NCBI RefSeq assembly: GCF_017355785.1
Contig: NZ_JAFEWE010000002.1
Span: 360,618-424,617 of the forward strand
DNA from: Desertivirga arenae
Lineage (GTDB): Bacteria > Bacteroidota > Bacteroidia > Sphingobacteriales > Sphingobacteriaceae
Direction of reading: 5' to 3'
Length of the DNA stretch: 64,000 bases
The position numbers and the translations under genes were made by a program. Shown piece after piece: positions 6,358-19,457 of the stretch. Numbering within the stretch: position 1 is the first letter of the stretch; each line of letters starts with the position of its first letter. The notes under the pieces are model-generated. The model did not search any database, had not been told where the DNA came from, and was given only the letters and a program-made list of their open reading frames with translations.

Positions 6358-7059
6358 ATGCGTAAACTTCATGCAATCACCGGACTGCTATTAATGATGA
6401 GTTCGGCAGCATTCTCTCAAAACAAAAGTTTTATCGACCAGCCCTATGTAGAAGTTAATGGCTATGCTGATACATTAATTACCCCGAATGAAATCTACAT
6501 TAAGATTAACATCTCGGAAAAGGATACGAAGGACAAGGTTTCAATTGAAGAGTTAGAAAGCAAAATGGTCAACGGATTGAAAGCCATTGGTATTAAGACT
6601 GAAACAGAGCTTAGTACCAGTGATATGATCAGCAATTATAAATTCTACCTGTTGAAACAGAAAGATGTGGTCAAATCGAAGGAATACCTACTAAAAGTTA
6701 GTGACGCACCAACCGCCAGCAAAGTATTTATAGCACTAGAAGATATGGGGATCTCAAACACCTCTATTAGCAAGGTTGATCATACTGATCTGGAAAACCT
6801 TCAAAATATCTGCAGGGCTAGAGCGGTAGAAAACGCAAAAGTGCGGGCAAAAGCATTAACCAAACCTTTGAATCAAACAGTGGGAAGCGCTATTCAAATC
6901 TTGGAAATTAACCCTGGGTTTAATCAACCACTACAAGGAAGAATTTATGGAGTTGCAGTAAGCGGGTACGCAACAAAACAAAAGTACGAAGCACCAAAGA
7001 TCGAATTCGAGAAGATAAAAATTGAATCAACAATCAACGTAAAATTCATACTGAAGTAA
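6358..7059 (+). CDS. SIMPL domain-containing periplasmic protein (DUF541)
   Basis: 233 residues with a signal peptide (about 1-20, AAFSQ). The mature part begins YVEVNGYADTLITPNEIYIKINIS, the typical opening strand of the SIMPL/DUF541 family, and ends with strands IEFEKIKIESTINVKFIL. It has a late block NAKVRAKALTKPL, the conserved A-K-A-x-x-L-A helix of the family. Length is usual for the family. Family members are periplasmic oligomeric proteins linked to stress and membrane phenotypes, with no known enzymatic activity. It appears monocistronic. Confidence 0.88.
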   Translation: MRKLHAITGLLLMMSSAAFSQNKSFIDQPYVEVNGYADTLITPNEIYIKINISEKDTKDKVSIEELESKMVNGLKAIGIKTETELSTSDMISNYKFYLLKQKDVVKSKEYLLKVSDAPTASKVFIALEDMGISNTSISKVDHTDLENLQNICRARAVENAKVRAKALTKPLNQTVGSAIQILEINPGFNQPLQGRIYGVAVSGYATKQKYEAPKIEFEKIKIESTINVKFILK

Positions 7060-7166
7060 TTTCGACTGTACCATGGAGATAATTGACTCCGAGTGTATAC
7101 ATCGTAAATTCTAACCCTTACATAAAAACTTTTTAACTCGCCACTAGTCAAGATTATACCAATAGT

Positions 7167-7799
7167 ATGATTTTTTATCAATTAAAATTTTCGGTTGGAA
7201 AAGAGATTGGAACCACTTTCCCTCAATCCCAAAGGATGGTAAGCGAATTATCAATCGATGATCCTAGACATTTATGGAATTTAGAAGGGAAACTTGACGA
7301 AAGTGCCTATATTCCTGATTCTATTTTGCACCCTAAAGCCCGTCTTACGGATTTAATATCATCTTCTCCTATTTCCAAGCCCATAGTAAGCACAAAGCTA
7401 AAGGACCTAATTCTTACCTTAAGAGAAGAAGGAATTCAATTTCTCCCAGCCCAAGTTGTTACTAAAAAAGGAAAAACAAGATATTGGTTAATGAATGGAT
7501 ACACACCTGATTATCACCTAATTGATTTTGACCGTAGCCTTATCTCATTAAAACGAAGAGATGAGAATGGGACAGTTTCCAAACCATTAGAACTAAAAAG
7601 TAGCGATGATTATGTTAAAGCATTGAATTCAGTTGAGTATCCTAAGTTTGTTTGTGTGGAGAAGCTAGTGCTACTCGATAACACAATTGATAATATCATA
7701 TATATAGATAGGGTAAGTAGTAGTTTTTTCTTTTCTCAAAAAGCCAAGGATGCTATAGAAGAATCGAATTTCACCGGAATTACCTTTGAAATACTTTAG
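7167..7799 (+). CDS. DUF1629/Imm11-like protein (possible orphan immunity protein)
   Basis: 210 residues, no signal peptide or membrane segment. The layout is a variable N-terminal half followed by a long middle section and a final block, YIDRVSSSFFFSQKAKDAI then TGITFEIL. This resembles the DUF1629/Imm11 family, where a strand with D-R-x-x-S is followed by an S-x-x-x-x-x-A helix and a terminal G-x-x-F strand. Several members are immunity proteins of polymorphic toxins. No toxin gene is adjacent. The assignment rests on pattern only, so an unrelated hypothetical protein is possible. Confidence 0.5.
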   Translation: MIFYQLKFSVGKEIGTTFPQSQRMVSELSIDDPRHLWNLEGKLDESAYIPDSILHPKARLTDLISSSPISKPIVSTKLKDLILTLREEGIQFLPAQVVTKKGKTRYWLMNGYTPDYHLIDFDRSLISLKRRDENGTVSKPLELKSSDDYVKALNSVEYPKFVCVEKLVLLDNTIDNIIYIDRVSSSFFFSQKAKDAIEESNFTGITFEIL

Positions 7800-11497: not shown

Positions 11498-13156
11498 ATG
11501 GGAAAATTGCAATCGGGCAGTCAGGTATCACTAGAAACACTTAATCACGCAATATTAAATATTTCAACAGCGATAGCTGTATTAGAAGGAGCTGATCTTA
11601 TTCTTACACATGGAAACGAGGCCCTGTTCAAGGTATGGGGCAAGGATGCCAGTATTATCGGTAAGACTCTTCTTGATATTTTACCAGAACTGAAAGACCA
11701 GCCTTTTCCCGAATTGCTTCGGCAGGTTATGGAAACTGGTGTTGGTTACGAAGACAAGGAGGCAGTGGCCTATGTGGTAAAAAACGGGATCAGGGAAACC
11801 ATTTATTTCAATTACTCCTACACCGCTATACCCAGGGACAATGGTGAAGGTAATGCGGCTGTTTTAGTGGTTGCTACGGATGTAACTGACCTGGTTCTTG
11901 CAAAAAAGAATGCCGAAGACCGGGGTGCACTATTGGCCTATTTGAACCATGCGGGTGAAGAACTGGCACTATCCCTGGATACCGCTTCAGCCATTGATAA
12001 AATTTCCAAGTTTGTTGTGCCTCAATTTGCAGACTGGTTTAGTATAAACGTTGTTAATGGTGAAAAGCTCGATCTCCTTTTTGTCTATAATGAGAAACAG
12101 GATTATGTGAATTGGGCAGTTGAGCACCGGAAGCGTAAACCGTTAAGAATAGACGCTCCTGGCATTCAAAGCCATATTCTGAAAACCGGGGAATCTTCCC
12201 TGGTTCCGCTTATAACCCCAGATTTGATCAGACAATCGATTGAAGATCCGGAACAGCGGGAAATCCTTTTGGGTATGGACCTTCATTCATCCATCGTTGT
12301 TCCCATGAAAGTGGGAACAAATATTATTGGAACAATCAACTTCATTCGTACTTGCTCAAAGAAATCTTACACCGAACTTGATCTGTCCTTTGCTCAGGAT
12401 TTTGCAGCAAGGATAGCGGTATCCCTTGAAAATGCCCGTCTACATGAGCAGGCTTCGGAGGAGATCCATCAGCGAATTTCAGCGGAAAAGAAAAAGGATG
12501 AGTTTATCGGTATGGCCAGTCATGAGCTTAAAACCCCGCTTACCAGTCTTTCTGGCTATCTTCAAATTTTAAACCGGGGAGACTTACCGGATACTCAAAA
12601 GAAATTCCTGGAAAAAGCCATGTACCAATCAGGGAAACTGACCTCTCTGGTTAATGATATGCTGGATCTGTCTAAGATAGCAGCAGGCAAACTGCAGTTC
12701 TCTTTCGAGAAAGTTGACCTTAAAGCACTTATTGCGGAGTGTATAGAGGCAACAGAACTTTCTATCCCTTCTCATAAAATAGCATTTAGCTCAGCTCTTG
12801 TTAACGTGTTGGTTTTAGCAGACCGACACCGGATGGAGCAGGCTATTCTTAACCTTTTAAGTAACGCTGTTAAATATTCACCTGGCTCGGATAAAGTTGA
12901 GGTGAGACTAACGGCGGCCAACAGCTTTGTTAAAATCGCCGTAACAGATTGGGGGATTGGAATACCGACAGACAAGTTGCCTAACCTTTTTGAGCGTTTT
13001 TACCGGGTTAATGATACTAACCCGGGCATTTCTGGTCTCGGTATCGGCTTGTATATAACAAAGGAGATCATTGAAAAGCATAATGGGACTATTGAGGTGG
13101 AATCAGAAGAAAATAAAGGTACCACATTTTGCCTGACACTGCCAGCATCTTCATAA
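11498..13156 (+). CDS. Hybrid PAS-GAF sensor histidine kinase
   Basis: 552 residues with no membrane segment, so a cytoplasmic sensor. A PAS domain occupies about residues 15-135 and a GAF domain about 150-315 (FADWFSINVV, then SSIVVPMKVG). The HisKA domain follows with phospho-acceptor H342 in ASHELKTPLTSLSGY. The ATPase lobe has the N-box NLLSNAVKYSP, the G1 box DWGIGIP, the F-box LFERFYR and the G2 box GLGIGLYITKEII. All kinase motifs are intact. It lies near two receiver-only proteins (9831 and 13494), which are natural partners. A fragment of a second kinase follows its stop. Confidence 0.95.
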   Translation: MGKLQSGSQVSLETLNHAILNISTAIAVLEGADLILTHGNEALFKVWGKDASIIGKTLLDILPELKDQPFPELLRQVMETGVGYEDKEAVAYVVKNGIRETIYFNYSYTAIPRDNGEGNAAVLVVATDVTDLVLAKKNAEDRGALLAYLNHAGEELALSLDTASAIDKISKFVVPQFADWFSINVVNGEKLDLLFVYNEKQDYVNWAVEHRKRKPLRIDAPGIQSHILKTGESSLVPLITPDLIRQSIEDPEQREILLGMDLHSSIVVPMKVGTNIIGTINFIRTCSKKSYTELDLSFAQDFAARIAVSLENARLHEQASEEIHQRISAEKKKDEFIGMASHELKTPLTSLSGYLQILNRGDLPDTQKKFLEKAMYQSGKLTSLVNDMLDLSKIAAGKLQFSFEKVDLKALIAECIEATELSIPSHKIAFSSALVNVLVLADRHRMEQAILNLLSNAVKYSPGSDKVEVRLTAANSFVKIAVTDWGIGIPTDKLPNLFERFYRVNDTNPGISGLGIGLYITKEIIEKHNGTIEVESEENKGTTFCLTLPASS

Positions 13157-13493: not shown

Positions 13494-13883
13494 CTATGAA
13501 GCCCTGCTAATAGGAATAATTTTAGCCGCTAAGAAATCATCAAGAGCGTTAATCATTTCCTCAATATTGAAAGGTTTAGGTATAATTCCATCTGCGTTAT
13601 ACTTACTCATTGCCTCGAATATACGTTTGTCCGAGGAAAGCATAATAACCGGAATATCTTTAGTGTAATCATTACCTTTAAGTGCCTTACAGATTTCAAG
13701 ACCATCATGCTCCCCCATCTGAATATCGAGTAGGATCAAGTCTGGAATGTATTCTAAAATATTCTCAAAAATGTTATCAGGCTCCAAAGAGGTAACTACC
13801 GAGTACCCCTCTATTGGTAACAACAACTCCAGACAATCTAAAATATCCCTATCATCATCCACCGCCAAAATCAATTTCCCCAT
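13494..13883 (-). CDS. Stand-alone response-regulator receiver
   Basis: 129 residues, a single complete receiver domain: acidic pair in ILAVDDDRD, phospho-acceptor in LILLDIQMGEHDG, switch Ser in VIMLSSD and Lys in IIPKPF. There is no output domain, so it would act by protein contact or as a phosphate relay, as is common for single-domain receivers in Bacteroidetes. It converges on the PAS-GAF kinase gene, which is the nearest candidate partner. Confidence 0.92.
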   Translation of the reverse strand: MGKLILAVDDDRDILDCLELLLPIEGYSVVTSLEPDNIFENILEYIPDLILLDIQMGEHDGLEICKALKGNDYTKDIPVIMLSSDKRIFEAMSKYNADGIIPKPFNIEEMINALDDFLAAKIIPISRAS

Positions 13884-14023: not shown

Positions 14024-14326
14024 CTACCTTCCTTTATCATACTTCAACACATCCGACTCCAAATAATGCCATAATCCGTTCACCATTTCTCTCTTTATTT
14101 TGCCGTCCCTGGAATAAGCTTCGATAGTTTTGCGACTAGTATGAATTAATTCAGCAGCGGCCTGAGCGGTTATCCAATGCACTTTTGCAGTACTTTGTGA
14201 TTCAGGTGGGGCTAACGAAACATGTTTCCTGGACCATTCCATGATAATGTGAACATCATTACGGACAGATTCAAAGTCGGTTTTAAGTGCGTAGATAATT
14301 TTGATTAAGCGAGTAAGATCGTGCAT
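14024..14326 (-). CDS. Small helix-turn-helix DNA-binding protein
   Basis: 100 residues. The C-terminal half reads WITAQAAAELIHTSRKTIEA then YSRDGKIKREMVNGLWHYLE, the layout of a MerR/excisionase-like HTH_17 domain. The N-terminal helix is unassigned. It starts 13 bases after the stop of the MocR-like gene, so the two are very likely co-transcribed. Small proteins of this kind occur in Bacteroidetes accessory modules, where they act as local regulators or recombination directionality factors; no integrase is seen here. Confidence 0.78.
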   Translation of the reverse strand: MHDLTRLIKIIYALKTDFESVRNDVHIIMEWSRKHVSLAPPESQSTAKVHWITAQAAAELIHTSRKTIEAYSRDGKIKREMVNGLWHYLESDVLKYDKGR

Positions 14327-14339
14327 GGTATTATATTTT

Positions 14340-15875
14340 TTAATGGTGATTCTTTCTGGTTAGGATCTCCTTTTGGAGCTTCTTAGCAAGCATCTCTAAA
14401 GCGGGTTCTAAATTAAAGGGCAGTCCGGTAGCAAAGCCTATCTTGAGGCCTGTCAGATTCGATTCCCTTATGTTCCCTTTTGCGCTGGTACTGATTTCAT
14501 AGGAAGCAAACACCTGATCCACCAATTCCCTTCGCATAGGATATCTGAACTCAATCCATAAACCGAATCCTGCAAGTGCCGGGTAACTGGCTTCAAAACT
14601 TTCAGAATGGAACTTGGTGATCTCTATAATATCTCCCATCGCCTTTTTCGATTTTGAATTCAGCTTTTTTAACTGTTCGTGCTGCGCAGAAGAACTAAGA
14701 ATGGTATGCAGGGCATGCTCCATAATCTTGTCTGTCGCTGTTTCCATCGACTCCTGAAAGTGCTTTAAATGCGTGATAAAAGCGGAAGGCGCTATCACCA
14801 ACCTGAAGTTCTCCAGCTTGTTCAGCGTGACGGAGACTGAACTGACGTAAATAACTCGTGCACTTTTGGCCTTGCCGAGCAGGGGGAAATTGAACTTGCC
14901 ATAGAAAGAGTCGGGATAGTCGTCAATTTCCATAACTACGAAGTTGTACTGGTCGGCTAGCTTTAGCAAAAGCTCCCTTCTTTGTTTGCTTAGAGGCACA
15001 CCTCTTTCATAATCTGCCGAACTACGGATCAAGACCAGCTTTATATTTTTCTTTCTGCAGATCCGTTCCAACTGCACTATACTCATCCCCTCCCTATCCG
15101 AACCCGTAAAACTTATATGAGAAGTGATCATCGATAAAGCCTGGTAGTAGTGCGAGTCGGCAGGCGAAGCTAAAACGGCAGTATCTGTTTCAGAAAGAAG
15201 GGTTCGAAGTATTTCAGAAATGGTGGCTTTTCCGTGTCTGGTAAATAGAAATTGCGATTCATTCACCCTCATCGATCGGCTCTCGATTAACCGCATCAAA
15301 GTCGCATTCAGACTCGCGGTTCTGGTTTTGTTTGCGGCAAATTTGGTACTGTAAAATCGTACTGCGTCTCCACAAGCTGTCATATACTTCCCATCCAGTA
15401 GATCATCCGCACAAGGGAAAAAGTTACCCAACTCCAACCAGGCCTTCCCCCGGTCTATAACCGGAGGACGCCCCTTTCCCTTTGTCTTAAAGAAAAAGGC
15501 AGGCTTCTGCTGAAGATAGGTCTGAAGATCTTTAATACATTTTTCAGTACAGCCCTTAACATAGGTTCCTTGATGAGGCTTAGACTCCAGGAAACCATTG
15601 CACTCCAAATTGCGATAAACCTTAGCTACTGTATTGTGTTGAATGCCGAGCGCATCTGCAAAAGGTTTTATAGGAGGAACCTGATCTCCCGGCTGCAATT
15701 CGTTTTTGCAGATTAGATTTTCAATGAATAGTATGATTTGTGGTTGAAGGCGCTTCTTTTTATTCAGCTGAAGGGATAAGGAATTGATCCATTTAAATCT
15801 TTTTAGCGTGTTGTTTTTTGCGTTCTCCCTTTTCCACAATTTCTTGTTAAAGGAGTCGGATGAAATGTAGTTCAT
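14340..15875 (-). CDS. MocR-like GntR regulator lacking the PLP lysine
   Basis: 511 residues. The N-terminal winged helix (about residues 45-110) is of GntR type: PGDQVPPIKPFADALGIQHN then TVAKVYRNLECNGFLESK. The remainder follows the fold type I aminotransferase layout of MocR regulators, with IDDYPDSFYG for the usual EDDYDSEFRY. Where MocR proteins have SFSK with the PLP-binding lysine, this one reads SVSV, with Val at 349 (codon 14829-14831). It therefore cannot form the usual internal aldimine. It diverges from the DUF6266/DUF5675 genes across a 580-base gap and is the obvious candidate for their control. Family placement is firm; the loss of cofactor binding is inferred. Confidence 0.85.
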   Translation of the reverse strand: MNYISSDSFNKKLWKRENAKNNTLKRFKWINSLSLQLNKKKRLQPQIILFIENLICKNELQPGDQVPPIKPFADALGIQHNTVAKVYRNLECNGFLESKPHQGTYVKGCTEKCIKDLQTYLQQKPAFFFKTKGKGRPPVIDRGKAWLELGNFFPCADDLLDGKYMTACGDAVRFYSTKFAANKTRTASLNATLMRLIESRSMRVNESQFLFTRHGKATISEILRTLLSETDTAVLASPADSHYYQALSMITSHISFTGSDREGMSIVQLERICRKKNIKLVLIRSSADYERGVPLSKQRRELLLKLADQYNFVVMEIDDYPDSFYGKFNFPLLGKAKSARVIYVSSVSVTLNKLENFRLVIAPSAFITHLKHFQESMETATDKIMEHALHTILSSSAQHEQLKKLNSKSKKAMGDIIEITKFHSESFEASYPALAGFGLWIEFRYPMRRELVDQVFASYEISTSAKGNIRESNLTGLKIGFATGLPFNLEPALEMLAKKLQKEILTRKNHH

Positions 15876-16455
15876 TTGTAGGACAAGGTTAATTAATGAT
15901 TAAATCATAGTAAACTCAGATACTTAAATCAAATCTAATTAAGCTAATTATTAAAAAGTGTAACCTATTGTAGTTTATTGAGGCAGACCTATTTAGGCAA
16001 CGATCTCTCCGCTTTCTCCATAGTATAGAAAACCCATGTAAGCAGACAGCCTCGCTACTCTAGCCAGCACCACAGGTTCTGCTCCCGTTGCGGCGGGATC
16101 TGGCGCGCCAAATCCGCAAAAGTTCCGCATCAGATAGGCGCCAGATGGGGTTCATAGCGCCTGAGAAGCGAAGCCTTCTGGTCGCTGGCCTTAGCCTGGC
16201 CTTACTATCCTTCCATGCTATGGGCCGCTATTTGTTCCTGCAGATGTTCTTTCCCTAAGTATCCATCCGGTAGGAATTATCCGGGAACAGAAGGAACTAT
16301 CAGGGAACGTTCGGGAAAATGCTGCCTAAAATTCACTTCCCTTCACCGTACCACTACGTTTGTTCTGTCCGCCAGGGTACCAGCGGACGAAAGAGAGCTT
16401 CCAAAGGGACGCCTGAGGAAGCCGGACAAATGGTTTCATTTTAAAAATTAAAACA
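15876..16455. promoter_or_regulatory. Divergent control region between the MocR-like gene and the DUF6266 module
   Basis: No gene. The side near the MocR-like gene is AT-rich with the palindromic TTAATTAATGATTAA at about 15888-15903, a possible operator. The middle is GC-rich with an inverted repeat (ATCTGGCGC at 16098-16106 and GCGCCAGAT at 16138-16146). Nearer the module is a second inverted repeat (GCTTCC/GGAAGC, 16397-16422) and several GGGAAC/GGGAA motifs at 16280-16320. Its length suggests a long 5' leader. Confidence 0.45.
16098..16146. repeat. Inverted repeat in the module's control region
   Basis: Nine-base perfect arms ATCTGGCGC and GCGCCAGAT with a 31-base spacer. It may be an RNA hairpin in a leader or a regulator site. 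Confidence 0.5.
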
Positions 16456-17097
16456 ATGGCAGAATTACAAAACAACCCAATGGGTAAGCTATCCGGAAAA
16501 CTAGGTAACATGGTAGCAAGTAACTGGAGAGATATCAATTATCTGAAAGCTATGGCTAAGCGGTCGAATAAAACGGCTACGGATAGTCAAATAGAAGCGC
16601 GATTAAGATTTGCACTTATTCAGGAATTTATGATGCAGATAAAAAGAGTTGTAGAACGGGGCTTTGCAAATAGCTTCACCGGTCGCGCAACCGCCTTTAA
16701 TGTTGCTGTTAAAGCAAATAAACTGGCTATTACCGGTCAATATCCTGAGTTAAGTGTCGACTATGCGAAAATTACCCTTAGCGCAGGTGCCCTTACCTCC
16801 TGCTTAGATGCCACTATTGAAGCACTTCCAGACGCCAAGCTTCACATTAGCTGGAAAGAACCAGGTGTTCCTTATACGGAGGAAATGGCAGATGTAGTTA
16901 CAGTGGTGATCTATGATGAGGTGAGAAAAGCACCAGCCACGTACAATACATTCCTGCGGTCTGAATACAGTGCAGAAATAAGTTTGCCTGCTTCTTTTGC
17001 AGACGATACCGTTCATGCATGGATGTTCTTTACCTCCTCCGTAGGTTCGAAGAATAGTAGGACCACCTATTTAGGGTCAGTTACCGTACTTGCTTAA
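16456..17097 (+). CDS. DUF6266 family protein
   Basis: 213 residues, no signal peptide. It opens with NPMGKLSGKLGNMVASNW, the conserved start of DUF6266 (G-x-x-S/G-G-x-x-G-x-x-V-x-x-x-W), then RSNKTATDSQIEARLRFAL. The second half is beta-rich, with LHISWKEPG and VVIYDE resembling an Ig-like or fibronectin-like domain (about residues 115-213). Function is unknown. It is the first gene of the rightward module, and a strong intrinsic terminator lies just after it, so it may be made in excess over the genes that follow. A paralogue is next. Confidence 0.88.
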   Translation: MAELQNNPMGKLSGKLGNMVASNWRDINYLKAMAKRSNKTATDSQIEARLRFALIQEFMMQIKRVVERGFANSFTGRATAFNVAVKANKLAITGQYPELSVDYAKITLSAGALTSCLDATIEALPDAKLHISWKEPGVPYTEEMADVVTVVIYDEVRKAPATYNTFLRSEYSAEISLPASFADDTVHAWMFFTSSVGSKNSRTTYLGSVTVLA

Positions 17098-17104
17098 TTA
17101 ATCC

Positions 17105-17141
17105 AAGCTGTTTTTGCTGATCTGGCAAAAACAGCTTTTTT
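17105..17141 (+). terminator. Intrinsic terminator or attenuator inside the module
   Basis: Stem of 13 base pairs (AAGCTGTTTTTGC and GCAAAAACAGCTT) with a short loop, followed by a T-run. It lies between the two DUF6266 genes, 12 bases before the second gene's start, so readthrough must feed the downstream genes unless they have a separate promoter. Confidence 0.88.
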
Positions 17142-17152
17142 AAATCAAAACT

Positions 17153-17779
17153 ATGGCATCGATAAATAAATCACTCTGGCTTCCAAGCGGCAGCCTCGGT
17201 AATATGGTTTTCTGCAGTGGTCCTTTACGTAAAGCTTATGTGAGGTTAAGACCCGACAAAAAGAAACCCAGAAGCGTAGCGCAGCAGCTAATTAGTTCAA
17301 AGCTAAGCATGATGGAACACTTTTTATTTCCATTCAAAGCTCTTATTAAAGAGGTATGGAAGGAACCTTCAAAAAAGAGAAGAGTACCCTATGATTGCGC
17401 CAGAAGCTATTTTTTCCACCACTCCTTCGACCCCAGGAGCCCGGATGCAAAAATTCTGCCTGAGACGGTTCAACTTTCAAAAGGAAATCTTACAGCACCT
17501 GAGAACTATTACCATATCCTTGAGGGGAAGAACTTAATCATCAGATGGCAGTGCGATCCGAGCGGCGAAGTAGTAGATTATAGCAGCATATACCTGGCGA
17601 TCTACAATGAAGATACCAAGTCCTCCATGTATCAGAAAAGTAATGCTCTTCTGATCAACGGAGAGCTTATCACTGAAATACCCGAAGGCTTTCTGGGCAG
17701 CGCTCTTCATGCGTACCTGATCTTTCTCAGCCCCGATGGAAAAAGCGCCTCTGCAACGAGCTACATCAAATTAACTTGA
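17153..17779 (+). CDS. DUF6266-like protein, second paralogue
   Basis: 208 residues. It shares the family opening with its neighbour in divergent form (LPSGSLGNMVFCSGPLRKAY, then RPDKKKPRSVAQQLISSKLS) and the same two-part plan, with a beta-rich C-terminal half (about 115-208, LIIRWQCDPSG, SIYLAIYNED). No signal peptide. Being encoded 2 bases ahead of the DUF5675 gene, it is in the same operon. The clear divergence from the first copy suggests distinct roles, as in subunits of one assembly. Function is unknown. Confidence 0.78.
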   Translation: MASINKSLWLPSGSLGNMVFCSGPLRKAYVRLRPDKKKPRSVAQQLISSKLSMMEHFLFPFKALIKEVWKEPSKKRRVPYDCARSYFFHHSFDPRSPDAKILPETVQLSKGNLTAPENYYHILEGKNLIIRWQCDPSGEVVDYSSIYLAIYNEDTKSSMYQKSNALLINGELITEIPEGFLGSALHAYLIFLSPDGKSASATSYIKLT

Positions 17780-17781
17780 TT

Positions 17782-18243
17782 ATGTCAATTCAAATCATCC
17801 GCGTGGCTGCGGGGAAGAACAGTACCCTCAGTCACCTTTATATCAATCGAATTTTCCAGTGCTTCCTTTTAGAAGACAGCATACGGAAAGAAAAGATCCC
17901 GGGCATCACCTGCATTCCAGAAGGACACTACGAGCTGAAGATCAACTCTACAGCAGGAATGAACCAGCGGTACAAACAAGCCTATCCAGGCTTGCACAAA
18001 GGCATGCTGGAGATTGCTGGGATCCCCAACTTCACTTTGGTATTTATTCATATCGGGAATTATGTTTCAGATACCGCTGGTTGTCCCTTAACCGGGCACT
18101 CCTGGGCTGTGGTAAAGGGAGATTTTCAGGTACAGCAATCCGCATTCGCCTATAAGGAAGTGTATCCCCTTCTGTTGAAGATGATCGCTAGCGGAAATGC
18201 ACGGCTAGAAGTGATCAATCATATACAAACCTATCTAAATTAA
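17782..18243 (+). CDS. DUF5675 family protein
   Basis: Start chosen at ATG 17782 (MSIQIIRVA), 2 bases after the previous stop; 153 residues. It has the DUF5675 hallmarks: FQCFLLEDSIRKEKIPG, then CIPEGHYELK, and IHIGNYVSDTAGCPLTG with H90, G92, N93, D97 and C101. The H...(S/D)xGC pattern is reminiscent of the active site of YkuD L,D-transpeptidases, but this likeness is my inference and not an established function. The family is common in Bacteroidetes phages and phage-like loci. Here it precedes a one-TM coiled-coil gene and a holin-like gene. Confidence 0.85.
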   Translation: MSIQIIRVAAGKNSTLSHLYINRIFQCFLLEDSIRKEKIPGITCIPEGHYELKINSTAGMNQRYKQAYPGLHKGMLEIAGIPNFTLVFIHIGNYVSDTAGCPLTGHSWAVVKGDFQVQQSAFAYKEVYPLLLKMIASGNARLEVINHIQTYLN

Positions 18244-18249
18244 AACAGC

Positions 18250-18498
18250 ATGCAGATAGACATCAATATCAGCCTTCTTCTAGGGGGCATTTTATCCCTG
18301 CTTTTCTCGCTCATCGCCTTTTTTGCCCGGCAACTGCATAGCGATGTGCAGAAGATGGAGCTGAACCTTTCGGAGATCAAGCTGGATACAGAGCTGATCA
18401 AGGCCAACACCCAGTCGGAAAGCAGCCGCACTGCCGAGCGCATTAACCTGCATGAGAAGCGCATCGAGCAATTAGAGCATCGTTTACTTAAATACTAG
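18250..18498 (+). CDS. Small one-TM coiled-coil protein
   Basis: 82 residues. One transmembrane helix (about 7-27, LLLGGILSLLFSLIAFFAR) is followed by a long charged coiled coil to the C-terminus (LNLSEIKLDTELIKANTQ, then HEKRIEQLEHRLLKY). This plan matches small phage-associated membrane proteins found next to lysis genes and also resembles a holin accessory or spanin-like stalk. No lipobox. It lies 6 bases after the DUF5675 gene and 4 before the next, so it is in the same operon. Confidence 0.75.
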   Translation: MQIDINISLLLGGILSLLFSLIAFFARQLHSDVQKMELNLSEIKLDTELIKANTQSESSRTAERINLHEKRIEQLEHRLLKY

Positions 18499-18502
18499 GA
18501 AC

Positions 18503-18721
18503 ATGAAAAGAAAGCTTAACATCAAAACGAGGCTAAAGGAACCCAGTCCCGCCTTTTTCAAAAAAGTGAAGAAAATAGGCCTCCTACTTGGAGCCGCCGG
18601 AACAGCGGTACTCGCAGCGCCCATTGCTTTACCAGTCGCCATTACGACCGCAGCAGGGTATCTTGTTACAGCAGGATTAGTAGCCTCGGCAGTATCTGCA
18701 GCTACGGTAGAGGGGGAATAA
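18503..18721 (+). CDS. Small hydrophobic holin-like protein
   Basis: 72 residues. A basic N-terminus (MKRKLNIKTRLKEPSPAFFK) is followed by two hydrophobic, Ala/Gly/Val-rich helices (about 26-45 and 48-67). The size, the basic head and the small-residue membrane helices resemble class II holins or small bacteriocin-like peptides. There is no family I can name. It is last in the module and is followed by an intrinsic terminator. Confidence 0.65.
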   Translation: MKRKLNIKTRLKEPSPAFFKKVKKIGLLLGAAGTAVLAAPIALPVAITTAAGYLVTAGLVASAVSAATVEGE

Positions 18722-18728
18722 ATGCAAA

Positions 18729-18763
18729 CAAGCCTTGATTCGAAGGACAAGGCTTGATCTTTT
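18729..18763 (+). terminator. Intrinsic terminator of the DUF6266/DUF5675 module
   Basis: Stem CAAGCCTT/AAGGCTTG with a 12-base loop, followed by ATCTTTTA. The T-run is short, but position after the last module gene supports the call. Confidence 0.7.
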
Positions 18764-18769
18764 ACCGTC

Positions 18770-18817
18770 ATCCCCTTTACTGGTATGAGCGTCCCGCTTA
18801 TATCCAGTAAAGGGGAT
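18770..18817. repeat. Intergenic palindrome, GGTCTGAGCG family (degenerate)
   Basis: Outer arms ATCCCCTTTACTGG/CCAGTAAAGGGGAT are perfect over 13-14 bases. The core GGTATGAGCG/CGCTTATATCC is a diverged form of the GGTCTGAGCG family. The TTTACTGG extension is shared with the copy at 3501. Confidence 0.75.
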
Positions 18818-18890
18818 AGCTTACATAGAAGTACGCATTTCAACTATGAGGATTTTATTTAGGATATTTGTCAAGTTCAAAAGATTGGAG

Positions 18891-19457
18891 ATGACACCAA
18901 CGCAATTCAAACAACATTGGAAATCCGTTGCTGGAAGAGGCAGAAAGTGGATCACCTATCCACCTTGCGAGATTGAACATGTTAATCTTCTGGAAAGCAC
19001 CAAAGAGTTCCTGAGGGTGGGATTTCCTGTATCAGCAGCACCAAACCTTCACTTCAGGCCTTTAGGAGGAAAGTTATGCACTGCTGAAGAATTTTGCGGA
19101 TCTCCCCAAAGGGAAGCCCCCAAACACCTTGTTTTCTTTGGCGTTGCTGATCACGATATAATCTGCTTCGATACCGATCATAACGACGAAGTAGTAATTG
19201 TTGACTGGGAAAATCTAGAGCTCAAGTTAAAGATTAATAAGAATATTGAACAATTGGCCCAATGCCTGCTGGCCTTTCAATCCTTTATTCATAAGATAAC
19301 GGTCGAAAATGGAATTGATGGCTATGATGGATCCAACTTTACAGATGAACACTTTATTGAGTTGGAAGAAGAATTCCGCGGTATTAGTCCCACTATTTTT
19401 CAGGAAGGCCCCTTCTGGAAAAAAGAGCTTTGGAACTTGCTTAAAGCAAGAAAATAA
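18891..19457 (+). CDS. SUKH-like (SMI1/KNR4-type) protein, possible immunity protein
   Basis: The ATG at 18891 (MTPTQFKQHW) is preceded by GGAG and preferred to the frame start at 18846; the product is 188 residues. A stretch STKEFLRVGFPVSAAPNLHF and the later DHDIICFDTDHNDEVVIVDW have the layout of the SUKH-4 family, in which an opening F-L-x-x-G-L/F-P is followed by a charged strand-turn-strand. SUKH proteins often neutralise polymorphic toxins; no toxin is adjacent. A dead copy of its 3' end lies at 11066. Placement is by pattern and moderate. Confidence 0.55.
   Translation: MTPTQFKQHWKSVAGRGRKWITYPPCEIEHVNLLESTKEFLRVGFPVSAAPNLHFRPLGGKLCTAEEFCGSPQREAPKHLVFFGVADHDIICFDTDHNDEVVIVDWENLELKLKINKNIEQLAQCLLAFQSFIHKITVENGIDGYDGSNFTDEHFIELEEEFRGISPTIFQEGPFWKKELWNLLKARK

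Follow-up and report, generated by a model that had tools for sequence, protein, structure and literature searches.

What does a bacterial chromosome do with a set of genes that resembles the lysis genes of a phage and has no recognisable phage around it? The question is raised by a locus in a 64,000-nucleotide stretch of the Desertivirga arenae genome (contig NZ_JAFEWE010000002.1, positions 360,618 to 424,617; hereafter the window), for which an earlier model-made annotation based on the DNA letters, here called the sequence-only reading, had listed seven genes in two divergent units. All seven were confirmed at their coordinates among the open reading frames (ORFs) of the window, and their Pfam and NCBIfam matches agree with the families named then. 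On the plus strand lie two paralogous DUF6266 genes (16456-17097, PF19781 5e-30; 17153-17779, PF19781 3.1e-12), of which the first encodes a candidate abundant product or cargo. They are followed by a DUF5675 gene for a candidate peptidoglycan peptidase or endolysin (17782-18243; PF18925 1.4e-27, phrog_1501 1e-22), which starts at the ATG at 17782, the TTG at 17776 being merely a mechanical ORF start. Next come a gene for an 82-amino-acid coiled-coil protein with a single N-terminal transmembrane (TM) helix (18250-18498) and one for a 72-amino-acid two-TM hairpin protein resembling class II holins (18503-18721), both recognised by their homologues beside DUF5675 and by topology. The minus strand carries two regulator genes, discussed below. 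Here we report that this module is genuine, recurs and evolves under purifying selection, with boundaries that differ from those proposed earlier. We propose, at about even confidence, that it is an express-and-lyse cassette which descends from a phage lysis module, now belongs to its bacterial hosts and is comparable to a colicin operon or a type 10 secretion system (T10SS).

The unit recurs widely. Class-A DUF5675 was used to scan 84,980 species genomes. Loci were picked by DUF5675 alone, with companion genes found by iterated profile searches, and the scan returned 80 Bacteroidota loci from Parapedobacter, Solitalea, Pedobacter, Sphingobacterium, Chryseobacterium, Kaistella, Flavobacterium and others. 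When the window is included, a small two-TM gene lies downstream of DUF5675 on the same strand in 78 of 81 loci, and in 61 of 81 a TM/coiled-coil gene stands beside DUF5675, likewise in its orientation and most often 3-13 bp after it. The gene preceding DUF5675 encodes DUF6266 in 19 loci and, in most Flavobacteriia and Solitalea copies, a 267-amino-acid protein without a Pfam family, which we call c3; a protein with a weak match to fibronectin type III (FN3) takes this place in three copies. D. arenae itself has 11 matches to DUF6266 and five to DUF5675. Three loci of this genome (L044, L045, L046) hold solitary DUF6266 genes with neither DUF5675 nor a nearby HTH_17 gene, and Flavobacteriia loci (L096, L115, L131, L144 and others) have an SNase-like gene divergent upstream and a DUF6943 gene convergent downstream of the c3-type cassette. 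Ratios of nonsynonymous to synonymous substitution rates (dN/dS) were measured in related cassettes, the window copies being too diverged from their paralogues. They are about 0-0.22 for the c3, DUF5675, coiled-coil and two-TM genes (related Solitalea copies; Bacteroidetes bacterium 47-18 versus Pedobacter sp. BS3) and 0.14-0.18 for DUF6266 in Parapedobacter; the small TM proteins are thus selected as proteins.

Strong terminator-like hairpins had been noted after the first DUF6266 gene and at the end of the unit, and folding energies agree with both. The first (17105-17137, plus strand; -18.7 kcal/mol, z -4.9, T-rich tail) is a candidate attenuator; the second region (18725-18820, plus strand) consists of two stable hairpins that close the unit and probably form its terminator (minimum free energy -48.7 kcal/mol, z -8.7). 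A hairpin with a T run directly 3' of the first gene is present in 63 of 81 cassettes (50 of 59 c3-type, 13 of 22 DUF6266-type). Such hairpins follow 74 of 607 other genes in the same loci; they were found in 3 of 138 cases after DUF5675 or the coiled-coil gene and in 1 of 405 shuffles. Stem sequences differ among genera, so it is the structure that is kept and not the sequence. The hairpin is thus a conserved feature, for which attenuation is the function that we infer.

A second feature lies in front of the first gene. Five phased direct repeats with a GGAA core form a candidate regulator-binding array in the window (16273-16318, plus strand; period-11 z = 4.3 versus shuffles), starting at 16273, 16284, 16293, 16304 and 16314, with spacings of 11, 9, 11 and 10 and a mean of 10.25 bp. 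The array ends 37 bp before TACGTTTG (16355-16362, plus strand), a candidate -7 box and the sole match in the intergenic region to TAnnTTTG, the -7 box consensus of Bacteroidetes; sigma-70-type promoters showed no excess above shuffles. Arrays were scored period by period, as z-scores relative to shuffles and to control pieces of the loci themselves, because lenient tandem-repeat calls were unspecific (25% of control pieces). Among 26 DUF6266-type upstream pieces of 350 bp, z exceeded 3 in 46% for period 10 and in 69% for period 11, no neighbouring period being prominent save the multiples 20 and 22, compared with 0 of 219 control pieces from the same loci at periods 10 and 11. Upstreams of the c3 type have period 10 only (37% of 54). 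The hairpin and the phased 10/11-bp arrays appear to be two previously undescribed recurring regulatory features. A strong 11-bp array (z 8.5) also lies upstream of the solitary DUF6266 gene at L045.

Which regulator would use the arrays? The sequence-only reading had suggested that a MocR-type switch could control the module. The gene in question (14340-15875, minus strand) does encode a GntR head (Pfam 5e-10) and an aminotransferase-like body in which valine replaces the lysine that would bind pyridoxal phosphate (PLP); its NCBIfam match is to the MocR/PdxR group (4e-34, which falls short of the equivalog cut-off), and three relatives likewise lack the PLP lysine. Its suggested co-occurrence with DUF5675 failed where that of the small TM genes held: a MocR homologue was found in 0 of the 80 related loci, on which ground we rejected it as the cassette switch, and relatives elsewhere are merely 17-39% identical. 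It is probably a local addition outside the cassette core. The regulator linked to the cassettes is instead the small protein encoded at 14024-14326 (minus strand), which has a helical N terminus and a C-terminal HTH_17 domain, a winged helix of the MerR/excisionase/BldC kind (Pfam HTH_17 9e-6, slightly below cut-off). Of 30 DUF6266-type cassettes, a few of which are the same locus from two sources, 24 have an HTH_17 gene no more than 4 kb away, versus 3 of 59 c3-type cassettes. The repeat unit varies by cassette (for example TTCTTTACC, TGTCGAA, AGCGGAGAA, ACGGACA and CCGCAAA), and in a sample drawn mostly from Parapedobacter and the genus of D. arenae, cassettes with more similar HTH_17 proteins have more similar repeat content (Mantel r 0.46, p 0.001), a relation not seen for DUF5675 identity in the same cassettes (r -0.09, p 0.74). 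Based on these sequence comparisons, each HTH_17 protein may coat its own array, and cassettes seem to hold a paired regulator and repeat. A precedent exists in BldC, a MerR-like winged-helix protein that forms head-to-tail multimers on direct repeats (PMC5859096). The cassettes share with BldC, RdfS and Xis-type proteins a small MerR-like winged-helix gene adjoining helically spaced direct repeats (PMC5859096). BldC repeats, however, are 9 bp long and read AATTxxxx(C), whereas those described here are spaced by 10-11 bp and have a cassette-specific sequence.

Two-component genes also occur in this neighbourhood. In the window, a PAS/GAF histidine kinase gene (11498-13156) and a single-domain response regulator gene (13494-13883) adjoin the regulators, and Parapedobacter loci (L077, L083, L086, L088 and others) have a histidine kinase/LytTR response regulator pair just upstream of the HTH_17 gene, which could use some of the repeats.

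The phage connection comes from DUF5675 and the genes around it. In crAss001 (gp27-gp30) the neighbourhood of its homologue reads lysis regulator, lysis regulator/holin, hypothetical protein and L,D-carboxypeptidase/transpeptidase, and in cr85_1 the homologue likewise lies within the phage lysis cassette. The context of a relative in a Thiohalocapsa phage comprises hemolysin, Rz-like spanin, a hypothetical protein and peptidoglycan hydrolase, and phage homologues in lysis cassettes are annotated as peptidoglycan hydrolase or L,D-carboxypeptidase. On marine viral contigs, the gene after DUF5675 encodes an r1t-type holin (PF16945 6e-12; phrog_443 holin 5e-9), with a short TM/coiled-coil gene also following. 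The viral contig L173 has an SNase gene (7012-7365) shortly after DUF5675 and the holin. In another relative, DUF5675 forms the C-terminal tip of a 1604-amino-acid PPC/DUF6443/RHS protein (L051:11225-16039); in polymorphic toxins, the RHS C-terminal tip is the site of the active domain. The two-TM protein of the bacterial cassettes has on average 4.3 lysine and arginine residues before, 0.3 between and 1.9 after its helices, a distribution that predicts both termini inside, as in class II holins; 63 of 78 predictions gave this topology. Phage head, tail, packaging or integrase genes were recognised neither among the window ORFs nor among the displayed neighbours of other copies. This agrees with the earlier statement that no tail, capsid or integrase gene is visible and that the locus is not simply a prophage. 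The proposal that the locus is a lysis cassette of phage origin, free of other phage genes, gains support from the co-occurrence of DUF5675 with small TM genes, from the lysis cassettes in which the viral equivalents lie and from the lack of an integrase on the cassette-bearing contigs of D. arenae.

The simplest account of the conserved gene order, the attenuator, the dedicated regulator and the homology to phage lysis genes outside any phage is, in our view, expression followed by lysis. HTH_17 proteins bound to the phased array before the promoter would form the switch, and its opening would start expression. The cell would make much of the first protein, DUF6266 or c3, which is taken to be cytoplasmic and has no signal peptide. 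Given the terminator after the first gene, we propose that solely read-through transcripts reach the lysis genes, so that DUF5675 as a putative cell-wall peptidase, the coiled-coil membrane protein and the holin-like protein would be scarce. These would then breach the envelope and the first product would be released.

On this account, the cassette would work like two known bacterial systems. In colicin E2, the long transcript is rare owing to a terminator that precedes the lysis gene (PMC4353708). Colicin operons (cea-cei-T1-cel in colicin E2) would share with the cassette a first gene product in excess, the order of product gene, terminator and lysis genes reached by read-through, and a cytoplasmic product without a signal peptide (PMC4353708). 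They differ in that the cassette cargo is not a recognised toxin, no recurrent immunity gene accompanies it, no SOS box has been shown, the putative lysis part is of phage type (an enzyme plus a two-TM protein) and not a small lysis lipoprotein, and the cassette is chromosomal and multicopy. According to T10SS papers, cassettes of this kind that lie outside phages free their coupled cargo by lysis (PMC10847048). The Serratia ChiWXYZ and Yersinia entomophaga YenLC systems resemble the cassette, in which both functions are putative, as clusters of a holin-like protein and a peptidoglycan enzyme outside phages, with regulators and a cargo candidate (PMC10847048). The cassette differs from T10SS in having no spanin pair, in its unrelated enzyme (DUF5675) and holin-like protein, in the attenuator between cargo and lysis genes, and in its phylum; because no spanin was found, neither an i- and o-spanin pair nor a unimolecular one, assigning it to them would at present be wrong. 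The lysis cassette of the crAss001 type is similar in that a DUF5675 homologue stands beside holin and lysis-regulator genes, but it lies within a complete phage genome, with other small membrane proteins and no DUF6266.

Several observations weigh against the express-and-lyse account. First, no toxin domain was found in DUF6266 or c3 and no recurrent immunity gene in the cassettes, and the dN/dS of c3 (0.02-0.07) is so low that c3 is unlike a diversifying bacteriocin. Second, the membrane proteins fit lysis incompletely. Neither small TM protein matches curated holin families, and the coiled-coil gene was not detected in Parapedobacter-type cassettes. With 0.13 lysine/arginine residues before its TM helix and 3.7 after it, the coiled-coil protein is predicted to have a cytoplasmic coiled coil, which argues against an i-spanin, and no lipobox or lipoprotein ORF or other o-spanin was found in 78 of 80 cassettes. 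Topology and lipobox scan together led us to reject a spanin in the cassette, and rupture of the outer membrane thus lacks an explanation. Third, Foldseek returned no significant match of DUF5675 to the Protein Data Bank (PDB; the best E was 0.29, and YkuD did not appear among the matches listed), and its profile alignment with YkuD by hhalign is weak (P 0.03-0.04; score 18-19 versus a shuffle maximum of 15). Finally, the loci are kin, so that the counts given above are not counts of independent events, and HTH_17 gene and array adjoin, so that inheritance as a block could yield part of their correlation.

Could the genes remodel the envelope without lysing the cell? DUF5675 would then edit peptidoglycan as an L,D-transpeptidase- or L,D-carboxypeptidase-like enzyme, the small membrane proteins would organise the site and DUF6266 would be an envelope or cytoplasmic partner. 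The absence of a spanin from the cassettes speaks for this reading, as does the L,D-carboxypeptidase/transpeptidase annotation on many homologues from crAss-like phages. A further argument lies in the DUF5675 sequence itself: R7, H90, N93, G100 and C101 are among the residues invariant in 45 aligned sequences, and H90, G100 and C101 are also invariant in a set of 22. The H90-x2-N93...G100-C101 pattern aligns weakly with the H...SHGC of YkuD, IPNF..V.IH.GN...T.GC being paired with FPN...IYLH...SHGC. DUF5675 thus has the histidine and the Gly-Cys pair of YkuD L,D-transpeptidases (PF03734) in the same order, together with a collinear segment resembling the TP-G motif in a loose alignment, but no Pfam YkuD match and no significant fold match. 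Of the earlier comparison with L,D-transpeptidases, the invariant residues stand; the YkuD assignment by fold was rejected because no PDB match was significant (the AlphaFold2 model has a predicted local distance difference test score, pLDDT, of 94), and assigning the family to YkuD is premature. Remodelling is disfavoured by the holins and lysis regulators that neighbour DUF5675 in viruses, by the conserved hairpin before the enzyme gene, which suits dosage-limited lysis genes better than housekeeping, and by the lack of a noted secretion signal on DUF5675, which would need a route to the periplasm. We consider it rather unlikely.

The cassette may alternatively be a remnant or accessory segment of prophages or mobile elements. 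It would then be the last (3') section of a late operon from a phage, with lysis genes and a fibre-like FN3 protein, that mobile elements carry about and that itself serves no host function. Phage homologues do sit in late operons behind tail fibre genes, and copies in the D. arenae genome adjoin mobile-element-like genes. Solitalea longa carries four copies whose surroundings differ although 2-2.7 kb of their sequence is about 89% identical. One lies directly after a transfer-messenger RNA (tmRNA) gene (L097:5598-8447) and one directly after two tRNA-Arg genes (L103:5794-7906), positions that hint at insertion linked to such sites, with no integrase in view. The cassette spreads, but no recombinase was identified with its copies. 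Against a remnant stand purifying selection on all genes measured, the presence of the same four genes, together with their own regulator and attenuator, in tens of species, the absence of c3 matches from phage records and viral contigs, and the absence of a tyrosine integrase from the cassette-bearing contigs of D. arenae, whose integrases lie on other contigs. We regard this explanation as improbable.

Similarly doubtful is the possibility that DUF6266 and c3 are the structural units of a so far unrecognised particle or fibre (viral and small, virus-like or tail-fibre-like) that Bacteroidota release through their own lysis cassette. The AlphaFold2 model of DUF6266 (pLDDT 87) has a conserved N-terminal beta motif, a helical part and a C-terminal FN3 domain, and Foldseek assigns the C-terminal half to the FN3 fold (E down to 8.6e-5); a PDB sequence search for relatives of DUF6266 or DUF5675 gave none, or one chance-level FN3 match. 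About 40 residues at the N terminus are common to DUF6266 and c3 (hhalign P 7e-6; a score of 46.5 versus at most 18.3 in 20 column shuffles). Neither was found in viral contigs. OP209177.1 (L208, 1-8038), an 8-kb record filed as Caudoviricetes, encodes three DUF6266 homologues (homology P 2e-12) besides a rolling-circle/HUH-type Rep (PF23343 1e-8), 3'-phosphoadenosine 5'-phosphosulfate (PAPS) reductase and a CHAP lysin, and would on this reading be a free-living relative. No capsid or tail gene was recognised in it, so its classification looks doubtful, and DUF6266 of this kind was not found in plasmids. Because the N-terminal motif of DUF6266 is present in three of its proteins, DUF6266 may still be a particle protein, as suggested earlier; its FN3 half and these homologues would fit that role.

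Abortive infection, in which DUF6266 would sense a phage, the HTH proteins would act as repressors and the cassette would lyse the infected cell, fits lysis genes below a tight-looking switch, the restriction- or defence-like neighbours of some copies (by inspection) and the divergent nuclease-like gene of the Flavobacteriia copies, but is very unlikely given that PADLOC made no specific match to a cassette gene (a generic HTH match, mad1, 1.3e-5), that the neighbouring nuclease matches one candidate PADLOC model (SNc+LTD, 6e-7) and that a sensor need not exceed the lysis genes in amount.

Past the cassette, the window gene at 18846-19457 weakly matches SMI1/KNR4 (SUKH; E 0.004, which does not reach the cut-off). 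Proteins of the SUKH kind often confer immunity, but the related loci yielded no homologue of this gene. Rfam gave no match in the cassette region.

In a literature of 5.4 million papers, DUF6266 and DUF6943 are mentioned in none and DUF5675 in two, and no description of such a release system was found. If the express-and-lyse account is true, Bacteroidota would bear an undescribed self-lysis release system, with many copies per genome, and phage-derived release systems would extend to this phylum, in which the present analysis came across none. Three uncharacterised families, DUF6266, DUF5675 and c3, would gain a testable job, and the cassettes, each of which seems to have its own HTH_17 protein and its own repeat, would provide a natural set of paired regulators and operators.

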